Positions 11,629-31,839 of a stretch of DNA of 35,362 nt are shown here, piece by piece. Each line of letters starts with the position of its first letter. The first letter of the stretch is position 1. The position numbers and the translations under genes are program-made. The notes beneath the pieces were generated by a model that was given only the letters and a program-made list of their open reading frames with translations, searched no databases and was not told where the DNA came from. The stretch is from a virus. The DNA is taken from positions 1 through 35,362 of the IMG/VR virus record IMGVR_UViG_3300031963_000486; one strand, written 5' to 3'.

Positions 11629-11658
11629 ACCCCCGGCTAAATGTCGGGGGTCTTTTTT
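11629..11658 (+). terminator. rho-independent terminator of the early operon
   Basis: ACCCCCG (11629-11635) pairs with CGGGGGT (11645-11651) around a 9-nt loop, followed by C and six T. This is a strong + strand terminator ending the replication operon. The T-tract overlaps the stop codon (11657-11659) of the convergent late gene. On the - strand the hairpin has only a weak T-run (TTAAT), so it is one-directional. Confidence 0.88.
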
Positions 11659-14600
11659 ACAGCCCTGCTATATTCTTACGCATCGCCGGAATGTTGTAGA
11701 ACTTAAGCATCTCGTTCTCAGTCCGCTCAATTTCATCAATTACCCTGCGTTTTTCTTCCCCACCCATAGATTTGTCACCTGCTACAAGTTTGCGCAGTGC
11801 ACGAAAATCTTCCATCTGTTGATCAATCTCGTTGATCGTCTGCACGAGGGCGTATTTATTTAACTTCTCGTCAGTCAGATATGGCATCAACTCATCTACT
11901 CGACCATCGGCAACCATCCCATTGACGGTTGCATTTACCTCGGTCACTTTATCCCGCAAATCGTAATACTGCTCTTTGTAACCGCCCGGAATCTTGTCAT
12001 ACATAAACGTCTTGAATCCCGGCATTTCATACACATGGCGGTCAGGACGGTTAGTAAACGCCATGTTGGTCATGTCAAGCAACGTACCACCTGCAATACC
12101 TGTGTATCCCCGAAACACATACTCTAACTTCATCGGGGACAGCCCAGTGAGTTCACCAAACATCTTAGCCAACTCAGATGTGTTAGTCGTAAATTGTTGG
12201 TAAGCCTCTCTATCCTCTAAACCACGGCCCACAATCGGGGTGTTCGTAAAGAATGATTGGTTAAGCGATACTTCAATCAATGGCTTAATAAACTGCGGTG
12301 TTAAGTTCGGGCCTGTAATGGCATCAAACCCTGCCGTGGCAATAGCCTTGCGTAGTGCTGTTGCGTCCTGTGGACTTTCTGTGCCTTGACTAGCGATATA
12401 GTTGTAAGCACGCTCTGGCAATACTTTGAACAGGAACCCAACCTCAGGGGCTACTGGAATCTTAATACCTGCACCGGGGACGATAAAGTTCTTGTCTTTC
12501 TCAAAGTCACGCAGACCTTCGTACTCTTCATCATCCCCAACCATCATGGCGTACACAGCAGACAACGCTGCAAGTTTTATACCTGTAGACCAAAAGAGTC
12601 TAGTAGCCACTGCGCGTTCTTCAGATGCAATTCCTCGACCCGTCATGCTACGGTAGAACACCTCCATACCCTGAAGATAAGCGTTCATAAACGGAATAAT
12701 TTGCCGGAACAGACCTACCATCCGGTTAGCACCCTGCCGTTTAAAGTTAATAATCTCTTGAGCACGGTAACGGGCAAGCAAGACATCACCTTCAGGGAAC
12801 TGCTCAGATTTAGTTTCAGCCAGCGTTTGTTCAAAAACAGATTTGCGCAGTGCGGCATCTGAAGCAATAGAGAACGACTCCATAAAGTTAAGCGCTCTCT
12901 CCATCGTGCTACGTTGCTTCAAACCAAACTCTTTCTCAATATCTTCTTTTACGCGCCCCGTCATCAGGTCATACATACCCACAATGCCTAACTGCTCAAG
13001 ACGTTTGGTAGTAGCATCACCAAAATATGCGCCTTTAAACCCAGCCAACACACCTGCCGCAGTGCGGAAAGGATTCTTCGTGCCTGACATAACTGTGGCT
13101 CGGTACGAGTCTTGGAACAACTGACTGATAGCAAATTGTGGTGTGGCTGTCGTGGCTTTCCGCAAGAAGTTGGCAAATGATGCGAATGATTTAAGCAAAG
13201 GCATGGACAAACTCTCTACACCCTTAAATGCATACACATCAACTAAAGAATCTAATTCGTAGGACTCAGGCTTGCCGTCACGGTAAATGTAAATAACTTT
13301 GTTGGGGTCAACACCAGACTGCCCCTCTTGCACCCGACGGATACCAAGATTTAACTCATTAAACGTATCAACCAGATTTAGGGCGGCATGGTTACGGATG
13401 GCACTATTAGTCATCCAAAAGGACAAACCAACCATATTGTCAAAGACGTTGTTAATTTCGTCCTCACTACCTTTCAATTTGCCCATCTGCCCAAGGTTCG
13501 TTAGACCCTTGAAATATCCTTTGGGGCTAGTCTGTGCGGACTCTTCGTACTCTTTAATACGGTTCCAAGGCACGTAATCAATAGCATCTTTCCAAACCTG
13601 AGCCTGTTCTTTGCTTAACCTATCACCCTCTACCATCGCGTCAATCAGACCATTTTTAAACCCTGTGTACTCCTTAAACGCGGTCTCAAGTTCAGGGAAG
13701 TCTTTAAATGCTTGTAAGCCAGCATCAATCTTGTCTTGGCTTGGTAGGTTAAACACATCTTTATTAGGGTGATTTTTTAAGGCGTTAGCACGACGGGCAA
13801 TGAAAGCATCGTTGGCTAGTTTAAATGCAAGTTCTTGATTGCCTAGCCTATCACCCAATTTACGCACCGTATTCATGGCGCCTTCTAAACTGTTTGGGCC
13901 TTGCTTAACATCCCAACCGATATTTTTATTCAGGAACAGCGTGCCCTGCTTCATAGCGGCAACCGTCATGGTGTCCGAATGTTCAGCAGCGGTCATAAAT
14001 ACGTCAGGGCGGACTTTACCTAAAGCATTACGTATTTTGCCGCCAAAGGCATCAGTTAGTTTGCGTTGTACAGAATAACCTTTAAAGAAAACTTGGGTTC
14101 CAATTTTATCAATCTGGTCCTGCCGATAAGATGGATCAAAGAATAAAGCACCAACCTTTTCAATCGTAGATCTTTCAGGAACCTTGGGCTTCTCGTTAGA
14201 CATACCCTTCATCTTGTCTACAGCCTGTTGCGCTCTCTGCCCTTCGGCAGTCAGAGTTGGTGCAGCCCCACGACGGAATACCCCTTCTTGCTTACCTGCC
14301 ACGCCTTCAGCCCGTGTGCCTTTACCTTCTATAACGTAATCTCTGGCTTGATCTAATATGTCGTTTATATCTTTGGCGCTGATATTTTTAGGAAGAGCAC
14401 CAATCTTGACAAGGAATCGACGTATGAGATCTTTAATACGTTGAATAACACTCTTAATCTGCTTTTCTTCTACAGGCGTAAGCCGAGCATTGGTTTCGGA
14501 CATTTCAGCCAAAACTTCTTCAACAGCAGTCCGTTTATCTAGTTTAGTTTCCTTAATCTTTTCATCGGCACGTTGTCTAATTTCTGAGTTAGACGCATAA

Positions 14601-17116
14601 ATACTATCCATAACCTTGCGGTATTCTTTACCAAGGATAGATCTAAGACCAAAATGCCCAACGGTTTCGTGTGCTACTGTAAGTATTACGTCTTCATAAC
14701 CCACTAAGTTATCAGAAACAAGATAGACCGCTTGAGTACGAGAATCCCAAACACCTTTAGGGTTGGCTCCAGCAGCGGCAATTTCTGACCGTAAATTCTC
14801 AGGCAGTTCGCTTATGGATTGAACAACTTCAATCTTGGGTACATTAGCCCAGCCAGCCGTTAACTTACGGACTGCTTTCTCGACCAAATCCCGTGGATTA
14901 CCTGTTGTTCCGGCTTGAGCATTTCGGTATCTTAGATAGCGTTGAGCGGCTTTCTCACCTTGCTTGGCTTTGAACCGATACTGCTTAACTTTGTCCTTTA
15001 GACGCTCCTGCAACTCAGGAGAGAGGGCTTTCTGTGCGGCCTTATTGACACGGTTTAGTTTGGTCTCAAAGGCAATCTCGCCAGCCATCCGGTCAACTGC
15101 GGCGTTAATAGAACCTGTATTCTTAACGTACTCACCAAAGGCGGCATTGGCTTCGTCTATAGTTTGCTGTCTTAGTGGACGTTGCTCAGGTCTCTCTCCA
15201 GCAGCAAGTGGTCCAGCGTCAGGGATATTATCTTCCACTCCCTCTGTGACAGTTGGTTCAGCGGCTCCGGTAGGGGCCAATTCTCCTCCGGGTACTCCAG
15301 CGCTAGGAACGCCTGACTCATCTGTTCCGGGGACAGTTTCTCTATCAACTCCGACATCTTGTTCTCCTCTGAAACCCATCTTGTTCAGGAAATCTTCTAC
15401 TCCTTGAGCAACTTTGGGGCTTCGCTTAGGGTCACTACCAAACGCATCAAGCGCCTCTTTAACTGTAGCCGCCTGCTCGGGGTCAGTTAAATCCTTGCCT
15501 AGAATCTCTTCTCTTAGTTTCTTATTAGACGGGGCTATGCCCATGTCCTTAAAGTCTTGCTCCGTAATAGGGCGACCTTCGGCAACTGGTATCGCTTCTT
15601 CTACAACCTCTTCTTCGACAGCCCCGGTGCGTAATGCTCCCGGCGTTGGCTCGCCTTTTTTCTTTCCCTTGGTCGCAAACAACTCTTGTTGCTGTGCTGC
15701 GGCCCCAAATCCCTGCAACGCCACGCTCTCAATACCAGACTTAGTAGACTCGCTCAGGTTAGGGTTAGCCCTTACACGATTGAGAATCTGCCCAACAGCA
15801 ACTTGATCTTCTGGGTCAGTTAAATCTTTACCCTCAAGTTCTTTATAGAAAGAAGAACGCTTACTTAAACCGGTCCGGTCTAAAACGTCAGCCGTAAGCA
15901 CTGTGGGAAACTGTGCTTCAGGAACAGGCCCAGCAAACTCATCTCCGGGTATAAACCCAGTCTCTTCTAAACCAGCCTCACGGATAGCCATCTGAGTCGG
16001 TGCTTGAGTCCTAATCTGTTCTTCCAGCGTGGTTGGCTCAGTACGAGCAAAAAACTCCTCATCTGTTTCTTTACGCTTCTTCCCGCCTTTTTCTTCTACA
16101 GGAAGTTTTATACGGGCCAAGTCTTGCTCAACCTGCTGGATGTCGGCTGCACGTAACTCTTCAATCCGTGCTTGAATATCAGGGGTCTGCTCCCCACTCA
16201 TTAACGACGCCATCTCTCTTGCCCGATCTACAGGCGTCATCTCAAATGCATTAACAGGGGCGACAGGAGGAGTAACAGCAGTCTCGGCAGGGGTAGTAGG
16301 AGCCGCAGGCCCACGAGCACGACGACCAATAGCCAAGTCAAGTAAGCCCTGAACAATTGCACCCGTAGCACCACCGTAGGCGGCTTGCTCTCCAAGACCT
16401 TCGATTAGTTCTTGCTCGGGTTTATAGATGCCCTTGGCAATTAAGTTCTGAGCGAACCCGGAGGCGGCTTCCTGCGCGGCTTCTTCACCACCAGCAGCAA
16501 GAGCACGTTTTACATACGCAACTCCACCACCCACGATGTCATCACTAAGACGACCCAAGATACGTAATGGAGCAAAGGCTTCAGCCGCACCCGGGATAAT
16601 TCCGTATCCAGTAGCCGCAGCCCGTTGTTCTTCCGTAGCCCCTTCTGCTTCAGCCCGTGTTCTAGCCTCACCTGCACCAGCCGCCGTACCAAGACCCACT
16701 GCCGCAGCACGTCCAGCCAGACCAAATGGGCCAGCAGCAAGGAACGGAACAGTTGAGCCAACCGCTTCACCCAGTTTACGTCCTACAGTCTCTTCATATC
16801 CGGGGGCGGCTTCGAAAGGTTTCTTAGCGGCAGTGGCTAATTCTTTAATTTTTTCTCGGGTTGGTGTTTCGTATTCTTCAGGCAATAAAGCAGCCGCACC
16901 GGCACCAGCCGTTTCGAGCAACCCAACCGCACCGGGAACTAGACCTTTAAAGGCTTCCTTGACCTGCCCACCGACTGTGGGTTCGGGGGTAGGTTTAATG
17001 GGTTTGGGTGCAAATTGTCTGGCAGCAAAAGCCGCCACTTGTTCTTCAGTAGCGTCATCAGGGCCTTCAATTCGGTAGATAGATCCATCTGGACCTTGAA
17101 CCCTAAAGATAGCCAC
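11657..17116 (-). CDS. 1819-aa polyvalent/internal virion protein with HETVGH metallopeptidase motif
   Basis: This giant late protein starts at GTG 17116 behind AAGGA (7 nt). The N-terminus (MAIFRVQGPDGSIYRIEG...ATEEQVAAFAA) is a short module common on large phage proteins. Ala/Gly-rich helical segments (about 60-270) could be membrane-active. Two related segments carrying GKDLTDPE (about 425 and 537) follow, then Pro/Glu/Gly-rich linkers. HETVGH at 816-821 is an HExxGH zinc-peptidase motif. From about 970 the sequence resembles the LPD38 region of polyvalent proteins, including RQIIPFMNAYLQGMEVFYRS. Such proteins are thought to be packaged and ejected with the DNA, to protect it or modify the host. 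A 61-codon gene is nested at 15172-15357. Confidence 0.85.
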   Translation of the reverse strand: MAIFRVQGPDGSIYRIEGPDDATEEQVAAFAARQFAPKPIKPTPEPTVGGQVKEAFKGLVPGAVGLLETAGAGAAALLPEEYETPTREKIKELATAAKKPFEAAPGYEETVGRKLGEAVGSTVPFLAAGPFGLAGRAAAVGLGTAAGAGEARTRAEAEGATEEQRAAATGYGIIPGAAEAFAPLRILGRLSDDIVGGGVAYVKRALAAGGEEAAQEAASGFAQNLIAKGIYKPEQELIEGLGEQAAYGGATGAIVQGLLDLAIGRRARGPAAPTTPAETAVTPPVAPVNAFEMTPVDRAREMASLMSGEQTPDIQARIEELRAADIQQVEQDLARIKLPVEEKGGKKRKETDEEFFARTEPTTLEEQIRTQAPTQMAIREAGLEETGFIPGDEFAGPVPEAQFPTVLTADVLDRTGLSKRSSFYKELEGKDLTDPEDQVAVGQILNRVRANPNLSESTKSGIESVALQGFGAAAQQQELFATKGKKKGEPTPGALRTGAVEEEVVEEAIPVAEGRPITEQDFKDMGIAPSNKKLREEILGKDLTDPEQAATVKEALDAFGSDPKRSPKVAQGVEDFLNKMGFRGEQDVGVDRETVPGTDESGVPSAGVPGGELAPTGAAEPTVTEGVEDNIPDAGPLAAGERPEQRPLRQQTIDEANAAFGEYVKNTGSINAAVDRMAGEIAFETKLNRVNKAAQKALSPELQERLKDKVKQYRFKAKQGEKAAQRYLRYRNAQAGTTGNPRDLVEKAVRKLTAGWANVPKIEVVQSISELPENLRSEIAAAGANPKGVWDSRTQAVYLVSDNLVGYEDVILTVAHETVGHFGLRSILGKEYRKVMDSIYASNSEIRQRADEKIKETKLDKRTAVEEVLAEMSETNARLTPVEEKQIKSVIQRIKDLIRRFLVKIGALPKNISAKDINDILDQARDYVIEGKGTRAEGVAGKQEGVFRRGAAPTLTAEGQRAQQAVDKMKGMSNEKPKVPERSTIEKVGALFFDPSYRQDQIDKIGTQVFFKGYSVQRKLTDAFGGKIRNALGKVRPDVFMTAAEHSDTMTVAAMKQGTLFLNKNIGWDVKQGPNSLEGAMNTVRKLGDRLGNQELAFKLANDAFIARRANALKNHPNKDVFNLPSQDKIDAGLQAFKDFPELETAFKEYTGFKNGLIDAMVEGDRLSKEQAQVWKDAIDYVPWNRIKEYEESAQTSPKGYFKGLTNLGQMGKLKGSEDEINNVFDNMVGLSFWMTNSAIRNHAALNLVDTFNELNLGIRRVQEGQSGVDPNKVIYIYRDGKPESYELDSLVDVYAFKGVESLSMPLLKSFASFANFLRKATTATPQFAISQLFQDSYRATVMSGTKNPFRTAAGVLAGFKGAYFGDATTKRLEQLGIVGMYDLMTGRVKEDIEKEFGLKQRSTMERALNFMESFSIASDAALRKSVFEQTLAETKSEQFPEGDVLLARYRAQEIINFKRQGANRMVGLFRQIIPFMNAYLQGMEVFYRSMTGRGIASEERAVATRLFWSTGIKLAALSAVYAMMVGDDEEYEGLRDFEKDKNFIVPGAGIKIPVAPEVGFLFKVLPERAYNYIASQGTESPQDATALRKAIATAGFDAITGPNLTPQFIKPLIEVSLNQSFFTNTPIVGRGLEDREAYQQFTTNTSELAKMFGELTGLSPMKLEYVFRGYTGIAGGTLLDMTNMAFTNRPDRHVYEMPGFKTFMYDKIPGGYKEQYYDLRDKVTEVNATVNGMVADGRVDELMPYLTDEKLNKYALVQTINEIDQQMEDFRALRKLVAGDKSMGGEEKRRVIDEIERTENEMLKFYNIPAMRKNIAGL
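15172..15357 (-). CDS. nested 61-aa gene in the +1 frame of the polyvalent protein gene
   Basis: ATG 15357 has AGAGGAGA about 6 nt upstream on the - strand, a strong SD in the middle of another gene. The product (MSELIEKLSPEQMSQAFLAL, then a PEENWPLPEPL segment and a long Leu/Glu helix ending SNVH) looks like a real soluble helical protein. In contrast, the main frame here (about residues 587-648) is a Pro/Gly/Thr/Glu linker of the kind expected from an unconstrained frame. It resembles small acidic Leu-rich phage proteins with an ENWP motif, but I cannot name a family. It is probably translated independently from the late transcript. Confidence 0.65.
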   Translation of the reverse strand: MSELIEKLSPEQMSQAFLALEYPEENWPLPEPLNQLSQREWKIISLTLDHLLLERDLSNVH

Positions 17117-22523: not shown

Positions 22524-23303
22524 CTATGGGGCTATGGTAACTGTGACTGTCCCCACAGAACCGGAAGCGGGTACCGAAGAAAGGCGTACTACAGTCTTAT
22601 ATAGGAGCGAGGAAACAAACGTGATTGACCCTATAACCGAGGGGATGGCAGGTCTGACAAAAGGCGAGACTTGGGGGCCGTCATGGTAAATATAAACACC
22701 ATTAGTTGGGGTAGTGGGGTTGCCAGCCAGATCTGTAGCCCAATACAACTCAATCTCATCTCCAGCGATAGCAGTAAAAGTAGCCTCGGAATACCCGCAA
22801 ATATAGCCTTCTTCCCCCGGACTAGCACTTTTACGGGCTGGGATGGTAAAGATTGTGGTTGAGTTATCTACGTCTATATTATTGACTTTAAGCCAAACCG
22901 TGGCGTAGTGAATAGCGTTTGCCGTATTGATAAACTGAAGGCTAAAAGTAATTTTATAAACCCCGTCATAGGTAGCCGTTGCTGAACCGGGAGGATTAAG
23001 TGTCCATCCATACTCAGAGTCAAGCGTATTAAATTTAACCTGAGTGGCGGTGTTATTACCACTAGCAATCTGATCTGTTGAATCAGATGCGGCAATATGG
23101 GGGAAGACTAAGTTTTGACCATACCCAATAAACTCCCCGCCATAAAAATAGTCGGCACGGTACGAGTTGGCTTGGTTGGGGGTAAGCGAGTCTAGTTGGT
23201 TAAAGTATAGGCGAAGTATACGAATCAGATCCGTGTGGTATCTCTGATCGTATTCAACAGGCGGTACCGGTAATGCTGGCGCCTGAAACCTCTCCATTGC
23301 CAT
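22524..23303 (-). CDS. virion protein with C1q/TNF-like jelly-roll segment
   Basis: This is a 259-aa protein. The N-terminus (RFQAPALPVPPVEYDQRYHT, then LIRILRLYFNQLD) is a short helical anchor seen on virion proteins of related phages. Residues about 85-195 form a beta-sandwich like the C1q/TNF family: YDGVYKITFSLQFINTANAI, then an HYATVWLKVNN strand and the IAGDEIELYWATDL strand. Ser/Thr/Val-rich strands close the protein. A capsid decoration or neck/tail appendage role is likely. TAATG overlap with the upstream 635-aa gene indicates close co-translation. Confidence 0.75.
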   Translation of the reverse strand: MAMERFQAPALPVPPVEYDQRYHTDLIRILRLYFNQLDSLTPNQANSYRADYFYGGEFIGYGQNLVFPHIAASDSTDQIASGNNTATQVKFNTLDSEYGWTLNPPGSATATYDGVYKITFSLQFINTANAIHYATVWLKVNNIDVDNSTTIFTIPARKSASPGEEGYICGYSEATFTAIAGDEIELYWATDLAGNPTTPTNGVYIYHDGPQVSPFVRPAIPSVIGSITFVSSLLYKTVVRLSSVPASGSVGTVTVTIAP

Positions 23304-25210
23304 TAGCGTTTACCATCCACACGAGCATCTAGTCTAGGCACACCTAACTGCCAGTTAACTCCTAAGTCCTCTGAACTAATCTTTAGCGCCATTTGACGGG
23401 CACGGGCACGAATAAATACCTGCTCCGTATACACATCCACCGCAGTCTCAATTACCGGCTTAGAGTCTGTAGTGCCTACCGATTGGAAACCTGACCCGGG
23501 GAAGTTACGAGGGCGAAGTTGTATCGTTACCTCTGGTTGAGCGGCAGTAGACTTAGCAAAGTTAACGTCAGGAAGCATACGACGAGTCAGCATAAACTGC
23601 TCACCGTCAGCAATATCAAAGTCAGATGACTGAATGTAGGCCGCTATTGGGGCACCATCGTCATCTAAACCATTTTCTTGATCGTATAGAACCCCAGTAT
23701 TGCTTCCGCTAGGCGTATTAACTGCCATAGGATACTCACGCAGCGGGCTGTCTAACCAAGCAGTGCGGTCAATATTTCCGTAGTACCAGATACGCTCAAG
23801 GTAGTTATAGATTACATAACGGTTGGGGTATCCAACATCAGAACTTGGATACATCCACCAAACCTCATTCCAACCCTCGTTCGTGCCAGAGATAATAGTG
23901 TCGGCCTGACTGTAGTTAATATCTTGATAGACAAACTGCCGTAGGGTACAGGGGAGCGTCTCAACACGGCCTGAATAGACATAAAACTTATCATGCCCCA
24001 TCCAGTAAGTGACGTTATTTACGGTTACAGCAGCCCGTGGGCTAAGGATGGAGATATTGTCTGCTAATTCTTGTAAGCCAAATACGTCCGTGGTTCCAAG
24101 AAATTGAAAAGAATAAAGATGTGATTCTGTCCACACCAAGATCTCTTGTCTGGTTGGTAGAGCACGGACAATCCTTGAACCCCTAGAGACTCTTATAAAT
24201 CCCGCAGAGTTGGTAGGCGTCGGAGTCCATTGACTCGGATTATCCTGATCAGCCCACCTAATAAGAAGGGGGTCAAAATCAGCCACACTAGTAGAACCAA
24301 AAGGCACACTCCCAAAAGCGAGAAGATGCTTATCGTTCTGTGATACAAGAACCTGCATAGCCTTGGTTGGTACTGCATTGGGGTTGTATCCATCTGCGGT
24401 AGCCTTTGTTGAAAGAAGAATTGCGTTAGTTTGAAGCGCTACCCCGGGATTAACAGAAGACCCACGCTCCCAATAATAAATAGCGCCATCTCTTATATTG
24501 GCAACTAAGTCATTATCAAAGTTGTCGTACCACCAATCGCTACCTTGTAAAGCAACGGGCGTTGTACCACCAAGACCCCACTCAAGGCGCCCCCAAGTAT
24601 CTGTACCCCAACCGTAACCAAATGTACCACCCGCAGTGCCAGCGTTTATTTGATATTTACCAATTACTGAAGCGCCACCGTTACCAGAATCAGAGGCATT
24701 GGCTGTAACTGGGACAACAATTGTGTATGCGTTGGCATTAATTACGGTGGCAATCTCAAAGCCTTGGTTGACGTTTAAAATCGCAGCCGTGACATTACCA
24801 CCCAAAGAAACAGCGCCAGTAAACTGAACGTAATTACCTACTTGGGCTGGGTTGCCTGTATCTGAAACTGTTACGGTAGAAGATCCGTTAACAGCAGCAA
24901 ATGTTACGTCCCCGGCAGCCGTTGTGGCTTGGAGCGGAGTGATGTCATAGAAGTAACCACCCGCTTCTAAATACAACTTAAGGTTTGTCCCAACGGCTAA
25001 TAAGTTGTCCCCAAAAGTTGTTACGTAGTTAAATAATTGTCGGCAAGTGCCAAGGAACGTATTGGGGGTCTGTTTAAGCCAACCACCAATCTTTTGGGGG
25101 AAACCCGATAAGAAGCGAACTTTGTCGCACTCGTACCACCCACCCTCATTAGAGTAGTTAGTCTGATCCCGGTTTACCCCCGGCTTAAATCTAAGTGCTA
25201 TAAATGGCAT
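23303..25210 (-). CDS. P22 gp10-like packaged-DNA stabilisation/tail protein
   Basis: This 635-aa, beta-rich, Trp/Tyr-rich protein has no membrane segment. The N-terminus (FKPGVNRDQTNYSNEGGWYE) and the repeated blade-like segments (e.g. IVRALPTRQEILVWTESHLY, YWMGHDKFYVYSGR, YVIYNYLERIWYYGN) match the layout of the P22 gp10 stabilisation family. This family closes the portal-tail channel in podoviruses. At 635 aa it is longer than P22 gp10 (about 470). An insert at about 90-180 (TVTVSDTGNPAQVGNYVQFT) looks like an extra beta-domain. Its position after the endolysin and before the internal proteins supports a tail-machine role. Confidence 0.75.
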   Translation of the reverse strand: MPFIALRFKPGVNRDQTNYSNEGGWYECDKVRFLSGFPQKIGGWLKQTPNTFLGTCRQLFNYVTTFGDNLLAVGTNLKLYLEAGGYFYDITPLQATTAAGDVTFAAVNGSSTVTVSDTGNPAQVGNYVQFTGAVSLGGNVTAAILNVNQGFEIATVINANAYTIVVPVTANASDSGNGGASVIGKYQINAGTAGGTFGYGWGTDTWGRLEWGLGGTTPVALQGSDWWYDNFDNDLVANIRDGAIYYWERGSSVNPGVALQTNAILLSTKATADGYNPNAVPTKAMQVLVSQNDKHLLAFGSVPFGSTSVADFDPLLIRWADQDNPSQWTPTPTNSAGFIRVSRGSRIVRALPTRQEILVWTESHLYSFQFLGTTDVFGLQELADNISILSPRAAVTVNNVTYWMGHDKFYVYSGRVETLPCTLRQFVYQDINYSQADTIISGTNEGWNEVWWMYPSSDVGYPNRYVIYNYLERIWYYGNIDRTAWLDSPLREYPMAVNTPSGSNTGVLYDQENGLDDDGAPIAAYIQSSDFDIADGEQFMLTRRMLPDVNFAKSTAAQPEVTIQLRPRNFPGSGFQSVGTTDSKPVIETAVDVYTEQVFIRARARQMALKISSEDLGVNWQLGVPRLDARVDGKR

Positions 25211-26699: not shown

Positions 26700-26846
26700 T
26701 TACCCTTTTGTTGCTATATACAAACCAATGTTGCTAAAAGAATAACCGGCAAACACAATAGCCATCGCTATGTTGCCCTTAGCACCTTGCTCAAAACCTA
26801 TGTAGGCATAGATACAACCCACAAAAATCATAAGCCAAGGACTCAT
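26700..26846 (-). CDS. 48-aa two-helix membrane microprotein in the lysis block
   Basis: ATG 26846 overlaps the stop of the phosphoesterase gene (ATGA), and TAA is at 26700-26702. The product has two hydrophobic segments (WLMIFVGCIYAYIGF and IAMAIVFAGYSFSNIGLYI) joined by a short EQGAKGN loop, a hairpin topology. Neighbours on the right edge are the GAF-like membrane protein and the holin. It could be a small holin, antiholin or unrelated inner-membrane factor. Because it is short it is easily missed. Confidence 0.75.
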   Translation of the reverse strand: MSPWLMIFVGCIYAYIGFEQGAKGNIAMAIVFAGYSFSNIGLYIATKG

Positions 26847-27784
26847 ACTCTTTGCCCACGAAAGTAAGCCACCCCGTCAATAACCTCACAAAGTTCAGGC
26901 GGCAATAATTTCCCATTCTCAAACGTCAGTACGGCAAACCCTGAACACCAATTGACCGGGTTCATTTCCGTATATGTAAATTGTTCACCATAAGGTTCAG
27001 CAAGCGTCCCGGCATCGACCCCCCAGCGACGCCCGTCATAATCACTAAAGGGGGTCGATCTGAGTTGGTGTAGATGCCCCGTGATAATTGATCTTCCGCT
27101 TTTCAGGGCATTGTTCCAAGTACTATGAATTCCGTTATGCCAGCGATGTTTGATAACAACTGATCCGTTAATATCAATCCGCCACCCATGATGCCAGCCG
27201 GGGAAGTAGTCCCACAGCGAAAGCATGTCTCCTATCTCAGGAGCATTAACGGCGATATACCGATGCAACCGAACGTCGTGATTACCTATCGTCCACAGGA
27301 ATACAGCGTTCTTTGTGGCGTTACGCACCTCATCAAGCCTATCTCTACAAGCCTCAATCTCTTTCTTTGGTGTGGGTGGGTTCGTGCCCATTAAGGGTTC
27401 GTGCCGTGAAATCCTAGCGCCGTCTACAACATCTCCGTTCATGATGACTGTTTTAGGCTTGTATTCTTTTATTAGAGAGACAAACGCTTTATGCGCTGTC
27501 GTAATCTGATCAGGCCAGTAGTGTGCGTCTGATCCAATAAACACCATACCATTTTCGACCCTATGTTCTAAAATCCGCCGATCTTCAGGTATGAAAGTTT
27601 TTTGATGGGTTTTTTGTGACGCAGAGTAAGCAGGCAAAGAAATTCCTTGTTCAGTTTGAATCTTTGCCTTGCGTAACCCAAACGCACGAGTAGACATACC
27701 AACGTGCGCAGCCGCCTTTTGGGTGCTACCAAATCTCTTCATTGCAGAGATTACTTCTTCATCAGAGACTTTTTTTAACGCCAC
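26843..27784 (-). CDS. metallophosphoesterase with N-terminal helix-turn-helix
   Basis: This 313-aa protein starts at GTG 27784 behind AAGGA. Residues 8-42 (EVISAMKRFGSTQKAAAHVG, then MSTRAFGLRKAKI) form a homeodomain-like HTH. The calcineurin-like domain has all metal motifs: GSDAH (Asp86, His88), MNGDVVD (Asp118), GNHD (167-170), KHRWH and GHLH (236-239). Such phage enzymes may act on phosphodiesters in nucleotides, DNA or phospho-proteins. The HTH suggests DNA targeting or a link to terminase-like proteins. It overlaps the Ntn-hydrolase gene by 23 nt and is ATGA-coupled to the 48-aa membrane protein. Confidence 0.9.
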   Translation of the reverse strand: MALKKVSDEEVISAMKRFGSTQKAAAHVGMSTRAFGLRKAKIQTEQGISLPAYSASQKTHQKTFIPEDRRILEHRVENGMVFIGSDAHYWPDQITTAHKAFVSLIKEYKPKTVIMNGDVVDGARISRHEPLMGTNPPTPKKEIEACRDRLDEVRNATKNAVFLWTIGNHDVRLHRYIAVNAPEIGDMLSLWDYFPGWHHGWRIDINGSVVIKHRWHNGIHSTWNNALKSGRSIITGHLHQLRSTPFSDYDGRRWGVDAGTLAEPYGEQFTYTEMNPVNWCSGFAVLTFENGKLLPPELCEVIDGVAYFRGQRV

Positions 27785-28205
27785 GAGGCTTCCTTGGTAG
27801 TTTTATTTCATCAATAGGGCCATGAGAACTTGAGTCGTACAAACAAGCAATCTCAACCGCCTCCTTCGGAGAAGCCCCAAAATGCATCGCCGCTATGGCA
27901 AAGTTGGCTCCTGTCCCTATACTCCAAAAATCATTCTTAATCTTTGCTGGAATAATCGAACTCTCATATATCCACAAACCGTCGTGCTTTAAAGCAAGCA
28001 CCGTAACCTCGGTATCAGAATCCAAGTCACCCCCGGACTCCATTACTTGATAGAACTTTAGAATCTTGTCCCAATCCCCGCAGGCACCATAAATACATTC
28101 TTTGCCTTGCCGTAACTTCTCTACTAAGTAAAAACTATCATCGCCGCTTACCATGCTATCTGCGGCAATTTCACCCGTAGAAAACTTAGCGGCAATGGTG
28201 GTCAT
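27762..28205 (-). CDS. proteasome/HslV-like Ntn-hydrolase family protein
   Basis: This 147-aa protein begins MTTIAA, which after Met removal would expose Thr2, the N-terminal nucleophile of proteasome beta and HslV subunits. AADS (14-17) and Lys30 fit the Asp17/Lys33 region of that family. GTGANFAIAAMHFGASPKEA (about 97-116) matches the conserved C-terminal helix region, followed by VEIACLYD. No HslU-type ATPase is seen in the window. The N-terminal boundary is set by ATG 28205 (TAATG overlap). The role is unknown: a virion or host protein peptidase, or a non-proteolytic relative. Confidence 0.8.
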   Translation of the reverse strand: MTTIAAKFSTGEIAADSMVSGDDSFYLVEKLRQGKECIYGACGDWDKILKFYQVMESGGDLDSDTEVTVLALKHDGLWIYESSIIPAKIKNDFWSIGTGANFAIAAMHFGASPKEAVEIACLYDSSSHGPIDEIKLPRKPRGVKKSL

Positions 28206-28916: not shown

Positions 28917-29489
28917 TTAGTGGCAACAAGAGCCACTTTTAGGGGCGTAGGAATATTTTAAACTGTCCGTAACATCTAAATAATCACTATTAAAAACAAT
29001 CGAAGTTTTAGTAATAATGCTTTTGTTAGGTTTAGAACAGTGAATTAAAGAATTAGGAAAAGTTAAAATATCTCCTTCGGCTACAGCAAATGACACTTCG
29101 TTACCCATTATGTTAAAAGTTGTTTGGGTGTCATTAGGTAATTCAACAAAATAAATATTAGAAAACATACAAGACGGATGAATATGCCATCCATGAAAAT
29201 CATTTTGTTTGTATTGTTGAAACCAATAATTTACTATTCTGCCATTTATAAAATGTTGATGGTTACCAATTTCTTCAATGTGGTCTAACGCACTTTGTAA
29301 AAATATATCCCAATATGGACGTGAGATATTTGGTGGCAAAAACCAATCCGTATTTGAAATACATTGTGATCGATCACATACCGAATGTTTACCCATACTA
29401 ATAATAGCCGCCAGTAAATTAGTTTTTATAGCAGCATGATTAGGATTTTTTCTAACAAAAATCGGTATATTTAAGTTGTTAATAATCAT
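28917..29489 (-). CDS. 2OG-Fe(II) oxygenase-like protein A
   Basis: This 190-aa protein has the 2OG-FeII_Oxy_5-type layout. HGWHIHPSCMFSNIYFVELP (99-118) supplies the first iron-ligand region (His102 and His104), and FPNSLIHCSKPN (144-155) supplies the distal His150. The Lys/Thr following it (KTSIVFNSD) could bind 2-oxoglutarate. The C-terminus ends SGSCCH, a possible extra metal site. Its ATG overlaps the stop of the next oxygenase (ATGA). The coding sequence is AT-rich against its surroundings. The substrate is unknown. Confidence 0.8.
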   Translation of the reverse strand: MIINNLNIPIFVRKNPNHAAIKTNLLAAIISMGKHSVCDRSQCISNTDWFLPPNISRPYWDIFLQSALDHIEEIGNHQHFINGRIVNYWFQQYKQNDFHGWHIHPSCMFSNIYFVELPNDTQTTFNIMGNEVSFAVAEGDILTFPNSLIHCSKPNKSIITKTSIVFNSDYLDVTDSLKYSYAPKSGSCCH

Positions 29490-30067
29490 TTAAATGGCTT
29501 TCCAGAAACCCACCCAACTAATGAATACCTTGTCCCCCTACTTACTGGGGTAACTCTATGCAAAACATAACTTGGAAAAACTAAAAGAGTCCCTTGATTT
29601 TTTCCTAAAATTGTTGGTTCACTTGAATAAACTAACTGTAATTCTCCGCCGTCATATAGTTCTGGTTTCTGTAACTGTAAAACAATACTTAACTTTCTTA
29701 TTATACCTCTTGAAACAACGTCTACGTGCAAATCATACTTACTATCTGGAGCCTCATATTTTGTAAACTGAAGACCTTCGTTAAAACCACTTAAATCAAA
29801 ACCAAAAAATTGATTATTAAGACTAACTATTGCATCTGTTAATCTTTGGTAAATCCAACGAGTTTCATCTGAAGGTGATATCCACGATACTTTACTTTTC
29901 CTAATATCACTAACGTGTTCATTCTCACGTATTGTTCCATCAACTAAATTATTTTTTTCACCTAATGAAATAATTGATTGGCACTCATCTTCCGTAAACA
30001 ACATATCCCAAAAAGCCCATTCATGTACTGGATCATTATAAAAAGACCAATGTGGGCTGTAGTTCAT
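29486..30067 (-). CDS. 2OG-Fe(II) oxygenase B (prolyl-4-hydroxylase-like)
   Basis: This 193-aa protein starts at ATG 30067, overlapping the upstream stop (ATGA); a longer 5' extension would lose this coupling. It has a double-stranded beta-helix of the P4H/PiuC type: YDLHVDVVSRG (His114-x-Asp116), YDGGELQL, FPSYVLHRVTPV (His170) and GTRYSLVGW (Arg180). The full HxD...H...R set suggests an active Fe(II)/2-oxoglutarate enzyme. Likely acts on a protein or small molecule; the substrate is unknown. Confidence 0.9.
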   Translation of the reverse strand: MNYSPHWSFYNDPVHEWAFWDMLFTEDECQSIISLGEKNNLVDGTIRENEHVSDIRKSKVSWISPSDETRWIYQRLTDAIVSLNNQFFGFDLSGFNEGLQFTKYEAPDSKYDLHVDVVSRGIIRKLSIVLQLQKPELYDGGELQLVYSSEPTILGKNQGTLLVFPSYVLHRVTPVSRGTRYSLVGWVSGKPFK

Positions 30068-30654
30068 ACAAATTGTACCCAACCCGTTAGGATAAATTTT
30101 TCACCCTTTAACGGTGGGTTACCTCTATGCAAATGAGTAAAATGTGCTGGAAATATTAGCAATCGACCAACTATTGGATTGACTCGCATATTTTGATATA
30201 AAAATTCAGTTTCCCCGCCGTCTGTAACTTCGTTTAAATACAATATAAACGCTAAAATTCTATCTGTATGCTTTCTACCTTGACATTCAGCGTGCCAGAC
30301 ATGATACCCCTGTCCCGGTAGTGTTCTCTGAATTTTTATGTAATTAACGGTATGTTGCTCTAGTCCGCTATTTACATGAGGAAATTCATTTGTGTACTTA
30401 GGATAGACAGTATTCCAAAAAATATCCGAAAAAGTTTTGGAATGGGAAACCATTCCGTATTCCATTTCTGTTTTACAAAATTCAAGCGGAACAACTGATA
30501 AATCATCTATAGTGCTTTTTGCTACTGATGAATACTCTTGACGTTGATACGTCATACCAGAAGCATCGGCAAATTTAAACTGTTCTATAGCGCTTTTGCA
30601 GTAATCTTCACTAAACAAACCATCATAAACACGGATAAAATTCTCACTCGACAT
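30064..30654 (-). CDS. 2OG-Fe(II) oxygenase C with HxE motif
   Basis: This 196-aa protein is the first of the three oxygenase genes in transcription order. YHVWHAECQGRKHTDRILAF (117-136) gives His121-x-Glu123 in place of the usual HxD. GGETEFLY, FPAHFTHLHRGNPP (His171 or His174) and EKFILTGWV (Lys186 at the 2OG carboxylate position) follow. HxE is known in some 2OG enzymes and in phage relatives, so it need not mean loss of activity. It overlaps the adhesin companion gene by 11 nt. Confidence 0.9.
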   Translation of the reverse strand: MSSENFIRVYDGLFSEDYCKSAIEQFKFADASGMTYQRQEYSSVAKSTIDDLSVVPLEFCKTEMEYGMVSHSKTFSDIFWNTVYPKYTNEFPHVNSGLEQHTVNYIKIQRTLPGQGYHVWHAECQGRKHTDRILAFILYLNEVTDGGETEFLYQNMRVNPIVGRLLIFPAHFTHLHRGNPPLKGEKFILTGWVQFV

Positions 30655-30979
30655 GTTTTACCCATTGTTGAGTTTCTTCATTCCACCAATATTCATCAGA
30701 AGAACTCCCCTCTATACCGGGATATGGGGTAGGTGCTCTCCACTTATAAAATTCACTTAGTGACCATGATGGGTAAGGTTGTGGAGCGATAAAAATATTT
30801 AATTGTCGATTGTAAGTTGTACCAACTCCGCCAATAACTCCATATTCAGGTTGGGCTGAACTATTAACAATCACCCAGTCATTAACTTGTTCTGGGAAGT
30901 TTTGTTCAATAAATGTGAAATCATCAATAACAATTATATTGTCAACTATATTTTGGTCGTTGATATGTACGCAATCCAT
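30644..30979 (-). CDS. small tail-fibre companion protein
   Basis: This 111-aa protein has GGAG 7 nt before ATG 30979. The C-terminal half (FIAPQPYPSWSLSEFYKWRA, then PTPYPGIEGSS and YWWNEETQQWV) matches a short domain found in cyanophage and other aquatic phage proteins near tail-fibre genes. It is rich in Trp, Tyr and Pro. It is placed right after the Gly-rich adhesin, so a chaperone or tail-fibre assembly role is plausible. AT-rich like the oxygenase cassette. Confidence 0.7.
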   Translation of the reverse strand: MDCVHINDQNIVDNIIVIDDFTFIEQNFPEQVNDWVIVNSSAQPEYGVIGGVGTTYNRQLNIFIAPQPYPSWSLSEFYKWRAPTPYPGIEGSSSDEYWWNEETQQWVKHVE

Positions 30980-30996
30980 TTACATTCTCCAATAAA

Positions 30997-31839
30997 TCAA
31001 GGACTGAACGTACCAGAGTTGGTAAATGTATGACTTGTATAAGTCCCATCATTAGTAACCGTACCTCCAGTACCCTTCTGAGCGCCTAAATAACGAATAA
31101 CTACGATACCCGCAGCGCCCGATCCCGGGTTTGTAAATCCATCATTTGGTACACCAGCACCTGCTGCTCCGCCGCCATAGTTATTTCCGTTTACGGCGGG
31201 AGAGGCTTCACCCGGAGTGCTTGTTCTCGCTCCACCATATGGGCCGGGAGATGCGCCACCATAAGCCCCGGGGCCGGGACGACTACCGGGAGCGGTTTGT
31301 CCTTGTTCCCCTGACGTATTAGTAGTTCCCCCAGAGGCCGTACCGCCTGCACCACCGGGACGGCTATTACCACCCGAACATCCTGAACCACCAAAACCGC
31401 CACTACCACCATTTGCGGTCATTGTAGGGCCACCATTTACACTAGATGTTCCACCTGCCGGAGCCTGAGTAGTACAATGGTCATTTGCCGCAGCGCCAGC
31501 GCCACCAACAGTAACAGTTAGTGATGATCCGCCGGGGGCTATAGCATAATTGTTATAAAATGCATGACCACCGCCACCCGCACCTGAAGATGGGCGATCT
31601 GCACCACGAACTGAACCACCACCGCCACCGTTTACATAAATTAATAAATTATATGTATTTGCCTTGCCATAAAAATCAGTAGGCATAACAATGGCACCAG
31701 AGGCTTTACCGGCAAGACCTCGAACTGAGGCTTCATTTAAACTAATTTGTGTGGTAGCGCCAAGCCCTAATTCGACGGCAATAGACTGACCGGCTGTACT
31801 ACCAGCAAGACTAATTGGGCCTGAGTTATTAAGAGCCAT
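30997..31839 (-). CDS. glycine-rich tail adhesin
   Basis: This 280-aa protein has an N-terminal conserved module (MALNNSGPISLAGSTAGQSI, then LNEASVRGLAGKASGAIVMP) common to phage tail-fibre ends. It is followed by a beta segment (YNLLIYVNGGGG) and a Gly/Ser/Pro-rich region (about 75-255) with GG-rich runs that can form polyglycine-II-like sheets, as in Gly-rich phage adhesins. It ends with a short beta region (GAAGIVVIRYLG). It is probably the receptor-binding tip. Residues accessible to the adjacent oxygenases (Pro) are present in GGPT, RPGGAG and GPGAYG-type sequences. Confidence 0.82.
   Translation of the reverse strand: MALNNSGPISLAGSTAGQSIAVELGLGATTQISLNEASVRGLAGKASGAIVMPTDFYGKANTYNLLIYVNGGGGGSVRGADRPSSGAGGGGHAFYNNYAIAPGGSSLTVTVGGAGAAANDHCTTQAPAGGTSSVNGGPTMTANGGSGGFGGSGCSGGNSRPGGAGGTASGGTTNTSGEQGQTAPGSRPGPGAYGGASPGPYGGARTSTPGEASPAVNGNNYGGGAAGAGVPNDGFTNPGSGAAGIVVIRYLGAQKGTGGTVTNDGTYTSHTFTNSGTFSP

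Follow-up and report, generated by a model that had tools for sequence, protein, structure and literature searches.

Oxygenase genes in a phage late operon and the proline content of the glycine-rich adhesins encoded beside them

An adhesin, a small partner and three oxygenases in one operon

The DNA analyzed here is IMG/VR virus record IMGVR_UViG_3300031963_000486, and “the window” denotes its full length of 35,362 bases; labels of the form Lnnn and Wnn denote comparison loci and records of the present analysis. In the window, the plus strand carries the replication genes (polymerase, helicase and primase matches) and the minus strand the virion genes. A late operon reads, 5′ to 3′, glycine-rich adhesin, g111, OxC, OxB and OxA (Table 1), i.e., it begins with the adhesin and g111, upstream of three oxygenases. 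A first-pass annotation had described three oxygenases between 28917 and 30654, with iron motifs of the HxH, HxD and HxE types and two ATGA-coupled junctions. ORF calls and Pfam matches confirm the three genes, all complete and on the minus strand; the motifs are present as WHIH (OxA), HVD (OxB) and WHAE (OxC), and both couplings are seen in the sequence, with an 11 bp overlap between g111 and OxC as a third. The g111 gene starts 17 bp after the adhesin. For OxB, the ORF list starts at TTG 30082, but the ATG at 30067, which overlaps the OxC stop as ATGA, is the more likely start. Promoter-like sites (13 vs 16.3 expected) and terminator-like sites (10 vs 7.3 expected) were uninformative.

Table 1 Genes of the late operon in the window
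Feature	Position	Strand	Properties
Glycine-rich adhesin	30997..31839	-	280 aa, 17 prolines; PF21722 32.5 bits vs cut-off 24.3; proposed substrate
g111, small adhesin partner	30644..30979	-	111 residues; PHROG 7759 E 1.6e-13; possible chaperone
OxC, prolyl-4-hydroxylase-like oxygenase, HxE	30064..30654	-	196 aa; PF13640 48.1 bits vs cut-off 27
OxB, PKHD-like oxygenase, HxD	29486..30067	-	193 aa; PF13640 54.4 bits vs cut-off 27
OxA, HxH oxygenase	28917..29489	-	190 aa; PF13759 38.5 bits vs cut-off 27

Elsewhere in the late region, a metallophosphoesterase gene (26843-27784) adjoins an HslV-family peptidase-like gene (27762-28205; PHROG 1040, E 3e-28). The largest gene of the record (11657-17116) encodes a 1819-residue protein of PHROG 9854, function unknown.

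The active-site residues of OxB and OxC are complete. In the PF13640 family, an H-x-D/E...H triad holds the iron and a basic residue binds 2-oxoglutarate (2OG), and alignments recover triad and basic residue in both OxB (H114, D116, H170 and R180, invariant in 16 of 16 relatives) and OxC (H121, E123, H176 and K186, with HxE in 14 of 15). The HxH of OxA is invariant in 15 of 15 aligned relatives, and the position near the end of the core where a 2OG-binding Arg would be expected is occupied by Lys in the window and the closest relatives and by Arg in several others. Since each iron motif is the usual one in its own family, the differing motifs are family marks rather than oddities of this phage.

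By sequence, OxB is nearest to PKHD-type hydroxylases (E 1.5e-20 to NF003974) and aligns over most of its length with PiuC/YbiX (9ghl, 3dkq), while remaining below the equivalog cut-off for that group (best 73.6 vs 143 bits, NCBIfam). PiuC/YbiX are cellular and, to judge by their names, connected with iron uptake, whereas OxB is encoded in a phage late operon. OxC is nearest to bacterial prolyl 4-hydroxylases (P4Hs) and matches the virus-encoded P4H of PBCV-1 (5c5t) with an E of 0.001. The AlphaFold model of OxA (pLDDT 84.7) also matches the 5c5t fold; its top Foldseek matches, 2rg4 (E 5e-9) and 3bvc (E 7e-9), are weakly found by sequence search as well, and its score against TIGR02466 (28.8 bits) is below the NCBI cut-off of 62.5.

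Oxygenase runs and base composition across phages

We gathered 75 other oxygenase loci via OxA, OxB, OxC or g111, near-duplicates included, and built oxygenase profiles from the three window proteins over the first 66 loci plus the window. Three such genes in a row had been considered unusual, a view that does not survive this comparison: runs of at least three occur in 18 of the 75 loci, and four-gene runs are found in the cyanomyoviruses and pelagiphages S-MS29, S-SSM5, P-RSM4, S-CAM8, S-TIM4 and HTVC008M. The C-B-A order recurs in L020-L022 and L030, while S-SM1 has the order glycine-rich gene, g111, OxC, OxB; cyanomyoviruses also carry oxygenases far from any adhesin. In relatives, the three genes occur together in this order in some cases and scattered in others, a mixed result for the condition that the first-pass annotation had named as refuting.

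Multiple phage 2OG oxygenases are already published: according to the accessible portions of PMC3037559, PMC9602691 and PMC9599517, most cyanomyoviruses have several of these genes, one phage has 24, and in pelagiphages the genes are co-located. These cyanomyovirus and HTVC023P-type pelagiphage sets resemble the one in the window in comprising several divergent oxygenases of the same Pfam families, often near one another, but where those portions propose a role for them it is metabolic, and adhesin composition is not brought into connection with them. The literature found (mostly open-access, bioRxiv aside) named no substrate for a bacteriophage 2OG oxygenase, a statement that covers the accessible portions of PMC3037559, PMC7824862, PMC9301287, PMC12774648, PMC9608196, PMC9599517, PMC9602691 and PMC10611076. 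A metabolic or DNA-repair role, in which the enzymes would change 2OG levels or repair DNA, has been proposed for cyanophages (PMC3037559, in its accessible part) and is in keeping with the many such genes per genome. Against it, OxA, OxB and OxC match no DNA-repair oxygenase family above cut-off in Pfam or NCBIfam profiles, and it leaves the adhesin composition described below unexplained, so that we regard this role as very improbable here.

Pfam identifies the S-SSM5 “DNA endonuclease” (L076:6782-7297) as a 2OG oxygenase (PF13640, 41.5 bits vs 27), and since PHROG 2297 bears the same name and matches OxB and OxC, this misnomer has apparently been passed on among cyanophage records. Oxygenases are adjoined by proteins named “ferrochelatase” (PHROG 2954) at L084:7313-7930, L076:4376-4963, L078:8781-9422, L085:5985-6626 and L081:4354-4959, and these five have no Pfam match. 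In PHROG 3531, also named “ferrochelatase”, the C-terminal part matches OxB and OxC and the N-terminal part matches the PHROG 2954-named proteins, i.e., it is apparently a fusion linking the two. In the cyanomyoviruses L075, L076, L080, L081 and L088, the oxygenase cluster is separated from the glycine-rich gene by an opposite-strand carbamoyltransferase gene (Nol-like in all but one of these five loci), whose product is another candidate modifier.

The first-pass annotation had also proposed that the three genes, visibly AT-rich and unlike their flanks, were a moron acquired as a unit. Its count of 20 G+C among the 60 bases at 29041-29100 is borne out by a count by eye, and the cassette stretch as a whole has a G+C of 33%. 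Gene by gene, G+C is 0.31 for OxA, 0.34 for OxB, 0.36 for OxC and 0.37 for g111, whereas the other 34 genes average 0.464 (sd 0.035); with the G+C of g111 close to that of the oxygenases, the AT-rich block consists of four genes, not three. At fourfold-degenerate sites, G+C is 0.10-0.28 in the cassette, 0.25-0.30 in the fibre genes on one side and 0.47 on the zinc-ribbon side. At these synonymous sites the cassette resembles the fibre genes, which are upstream, and differs from the zinc-ribbon side; its codon usage is not atypical.

In 71 of the 75 loci, the oxygenase genes have a lower G+C than the genes around them (mean difference 4.5 points); the gap exceeds 10 points in only two, and the drop in the window is larger than nearly all of these differences. 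The closest relatives of OxA (L064, L024-L027), OxB (L032-L043) and OxC (L003-L014) lie on separate contigs, which disfavors a single foreign block of three. On this evidence, and given AT-rich oxygenases in most loci, the cassette does not look acquired as one block. Over nine loci, OxB seemed to be co-inherited with a protein of PHROG 3287 encoded at 23303-25210 (Mantel r 0.64, p 0.013), but this was set aside, as it fades without L021 (r 0.25, p 0.13).

Adhesin proline content and neighboring oxygenases

Searches recovered relatives of g111 (PHROG 7759) from 39 phage records, and 22 of these records were analyzed. All 21 of the g111 records searched for PF21722 (the search left out W14) contain this domain, and in 15 of the 21 the g111 relative follows a PF21722 adhesin on the same strand, with ≤200 bp between them (Fisher p 3e-22 for adjacency over 18 lineage-reduced records, i.e., without W22, W10 and W15). 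Oxygenases occur ≤5 kb from the g111 relative in 11 of the 22 records. In oxygenase-bearing records, they are nearer g111 than under random placement (p 1e-4 over 12 records, 1e-3 over 9); the Fisher tests here left out near relatives, either W22 or W22 with W09, W10 and W15. In the oxygenase-selected contigs (without W22), adhesins were not demonstrably nearer oxygenases than chance (p 0.28).

The g111 family has no Pfam match. A T4-foldon-like reading of its C-terminus was dropped: the top Foldseek match was a T4-foldon fusion, but with an E of 0.62, and Pfam gave no such match. A weak fold match of the family (one row, Z 4.8, 53 residues) is to the Pam3 fibre-complex chain 7ypx_a, which at a length of 162 agrees with gp25 as described in the accessible part of PMC9608196. 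There, Pam3 gp24-gp25 (7YPX) is a glycine-rich receptor-binding fibre with a dedicated small chaperone encoded beside it. Relatives of g111 are likewise found directly behind glycine-rich adhesins, but gp25 has a helical C-terminal domain in that account, unlike the g111 model; the same part of PMC9608196 includes no oxygenase. With so weak a fold match, “chaperone” is a working label, and g111 is possibly an assembly chaperone of the adhesin.

In an exploratory count over the last 250 residues, 35 adhesins from oxygenase loci had a mean of 16.3 prolines and 15 adhesins from loci without oxygenase a mean of 6.4. As this signal was exploratory, we fixed the hypothesis, the expected direction and a distance limit of 5 kb before fetching new loci. 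New loci were collected with a DNA pattern for the adhesin C-terminal motif that contained no proline codon and was blind to oxygenases, and an adhesin was counted as positive when an OxB/OxC-type (PF13640) gene lay ≤5 kb away. Among the matches listed, this gave 120 loci with the first pattern and 114 and 97 new loci in later scans. The first 80 loci yielded, among the matches listed, 86 adhesin ORFs in 76 loci: 31 with OxB/OxC (mean 18.9 prolines), 52 without (mean 7.3; p 3e-10) and 3 with OxA only. The remaining 40 loci (19 positives, mean 20.3; 28 negatives, mean 10.4; p 1.5e-4) and a second viral pattern (15 positives, mean 16.4; 76 negatives, mean 6.3; p 1e-5) gave the same direction, both among the matches listed. 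In public genomes, again among the matches listed, two positives from one Pelagibacteraceae locus had a mean of 23.5 and 61 negatives a mean of 6.5. The C-terminal motif of the window’s own adhesin retrieved 34 adhesin ORFs in 48 loci, with 0-9 prolines (mean 4.0) and no oxygenase near any of them; the window adhesin itself has 16 prolines in its last 250 residues, counted over a slightly different stretch than in these 34.

Overall, after pooling and dereplication (partner genes >85% identical dropped), 45 of 51 adhesin–partner pairs with an oxygenase and 8 of 123 without had ≥11 prolines per 250 residues among the matches listed. Adhesins with <25% Gly were dropped, which removed two in the identity-cluster test, and the filter was kept in later sets. 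Also among the matches listed, 38 of 39 proline-rich adhesins have their nearest OxB/OxC gene downstream and on their own strand. By oxygenase set, in 115 pairs among the matches listed, mean proline was 18.3 with OxB alone (15), 19.9 with OxA and OxB (21), 15.0 with all three (5), 9.3 with OxA alone (3) and 5.1 with none (70). Because OxC was always accompanied by OxB in these pairs, its contribution is inseparable. In phage Melnitz, PF13640 genes lie ~28 kb from two g111-paired adhesins that hold 2 and 2 prolines, so that an oxygenase elsewhere in the genome is not enough.

The co-evolution of oxygenase and adhesin is proline-specific. In a regression corrected by the g111 tree and pooled over sets, among the matches listed, proline was the most shifted of the 20 residues (+6.0/250, t 5.7, p 5e-8), and in the first 115 pairs, likewise among the matches listed, it had a p of 4e-5; the pooled regression and the pooled pair count leave out two long-branched tips, one of them the window’s own. 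In the 115 pairs, among the matches listed, the excess was found in the glycine-rich part of the adhesin (7.4% vs 2.1%), with none in its N-terminal part (3.4 vs 3.9) and hardly any rise in other ORFs of the same loci (4.1 vs 3.8). The first set was also enriched in Cys, which the first pair test did not bear out (3 up, 1 down), and Pro-Gly was discarded as a target motif, with 202 observed vs 204 expected in oxygenase-positive loci. By eye, the proline-rich pelagiphage-like adhesins L089-L091, L093, L094 and L097 share approximately GNTPPxSPxQG and low-proline ones GTxxQGxxGG, and a GNTPPxSPxQG-like motif may be a preferred site.

Two other substrates within the late region were considered and rejected. 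The g111 protein was first suggested by its motif PYPSW...PTPYP, but its relatives near oxygenases hold less proline (4.8% vs 6.9%, in the 115 pairs among the matches listed), P82, P97 and P101 are invariant (8 aligned), and the prolines are kept in oxygenase-free loci. A collagen-like substrate was excluded by the lack of any run of ≥5 G-X-X in the adhesin, g111 and four other late proteins of the window. PBCV-1, whose enzyme is named a collagen hydroxylase in the PDB, is an algal virus, while the candidate substrate here is a phage adhesin without G-X-Y runs.

The association could also reflect shared ecology or lineage, i.e., oxygenases and proline-rich adhesins would both be traits of phages of certain hosts or waters and be passed on jointly in host-recognition modules, although the enzyme does not modify the adhesin. 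The distribution of positives over lineages is uneven: they are concentrated in pelagiphage-like and cyanophage-like groups, many of them in one pelagiphage-like group. Among the matches listed, the proline difference holds for clusters at 50% identity (7 vs 34 clusters, p 2e-4), while at 40% all positives fall in one cluster (p 0.14). Independent pairs, among the matches listed, went in the expected direction in 11 of 12 cases in the first set (Wilcoxon 0.001) and, pooled, in 13 of 18, with 4 down and 1 tie (Wilcoxon 0.0036, sign test 0.049). When pairs were restricted to branches with strong support, the 8 pairs among the matches listed gave 3 the same way, 0 opposite and 5 equal, which is not significant. 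Against this explanation, tree correction leaves proline as the one residue of 20 that stands out, the other proteins of these loci hardly share the rise, and single high-proline positives are nested among low-proline relatives (L032, L034, L044, L058 and L087). Lineage effects are only partly excluded, and we consider this explanation unlikely, if the most plausible of the alternatives.

Exceptions occur in both directions. Six oxygenase-positive adhesins had few prolines among the matches listed (L397, L423, L388, L112, L037 and L085); the first three come from the last scan, and the one in L112 shares its locus with an adhesin of 19 prolines. Eight proline-rich adhesins lacked a nearby oxygenase among the matches listed. 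L113, a 32.9 kb contig without PF13640, is a plain exception; in L069 (phage Bellamy), oxygenases lie 8.5 kb from the g111 gene, inside the adhesin array; and L089, L159, L375 and L399 are contigs of about 7 to 10 kb.

Candidate substrate and wider meaning

When an oxygenase from a family that includes prolyl hydroxylases shares an operon with an adhesin, and the proline content of a single domain of that adhesin varies with the presence of the oxygenase, the simplest reading is that the enzyme modifies the adhesin. Based on this co-evolution, we estimate a probability of about 0.6 that OxB, perhaps together with OxC, hydroxylates prolines of the adhesin receptor-binding domain. Specifically, OxB (PKHD-like), possibly helped by OxC (P4H-like), would use Fe(II), O2 and 2OG and act on prolines of the glycine-rich, receptor-binding part while the adhesin is made and folded with its partner g111, converting them to hydroxyproline. 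The benefit may be stiffer polyglycine-II/polyproline-II-like segments, an altered receptor contact or a handle for further modification. That the prolines are hydroxylated, that OxB does so and that the phage benefits in one of these ways are all three steps that we infer. Among the targets guessed at in the first-pass annotation, modification of a virion fibre is the one best supported by the adhesin proline signal. Its other guess was a host protein. Modification of one such as EF-Tu or a ribosomal protein in favor of the phage would fit the resemblance in sequence between OxB and the P4H of Pseudomonas putida whose structure with EF-Tu is 4iw3 (E 7e-4), but predicts neither a late-operon position directly behind the adhesin nor an adhesin-specific proline signal, and is in our judgment improbable.

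More broadly, the chances seem about even that adhesin, folding partner and at least one PF13640 oxygenase form a recurring mobile host-recognition module of aquatic phages, in which the oxygenase would install hydroxyproline in the glycine-rich receptor-binding domain and the adhesin would have evolved its high proline content to be modified; phage receptor-binding proteins would then be subject to a dedicated post-translational chemistry. The proline signal points to a specific candidate substrate, residue and enzyme type, in phages already cultured: Synechococcus phage S-SM1 and Pelagibacter phages HTVC023P and HTVC033P have the module, and Pelagibacter phage HTVC025P lacks it. If adhesin hydroxylation is correct, oxygen and iron supply would bear on how such phages build the proteins that bind their hosts, and reading an adhesin sequence would require knowing its modification.
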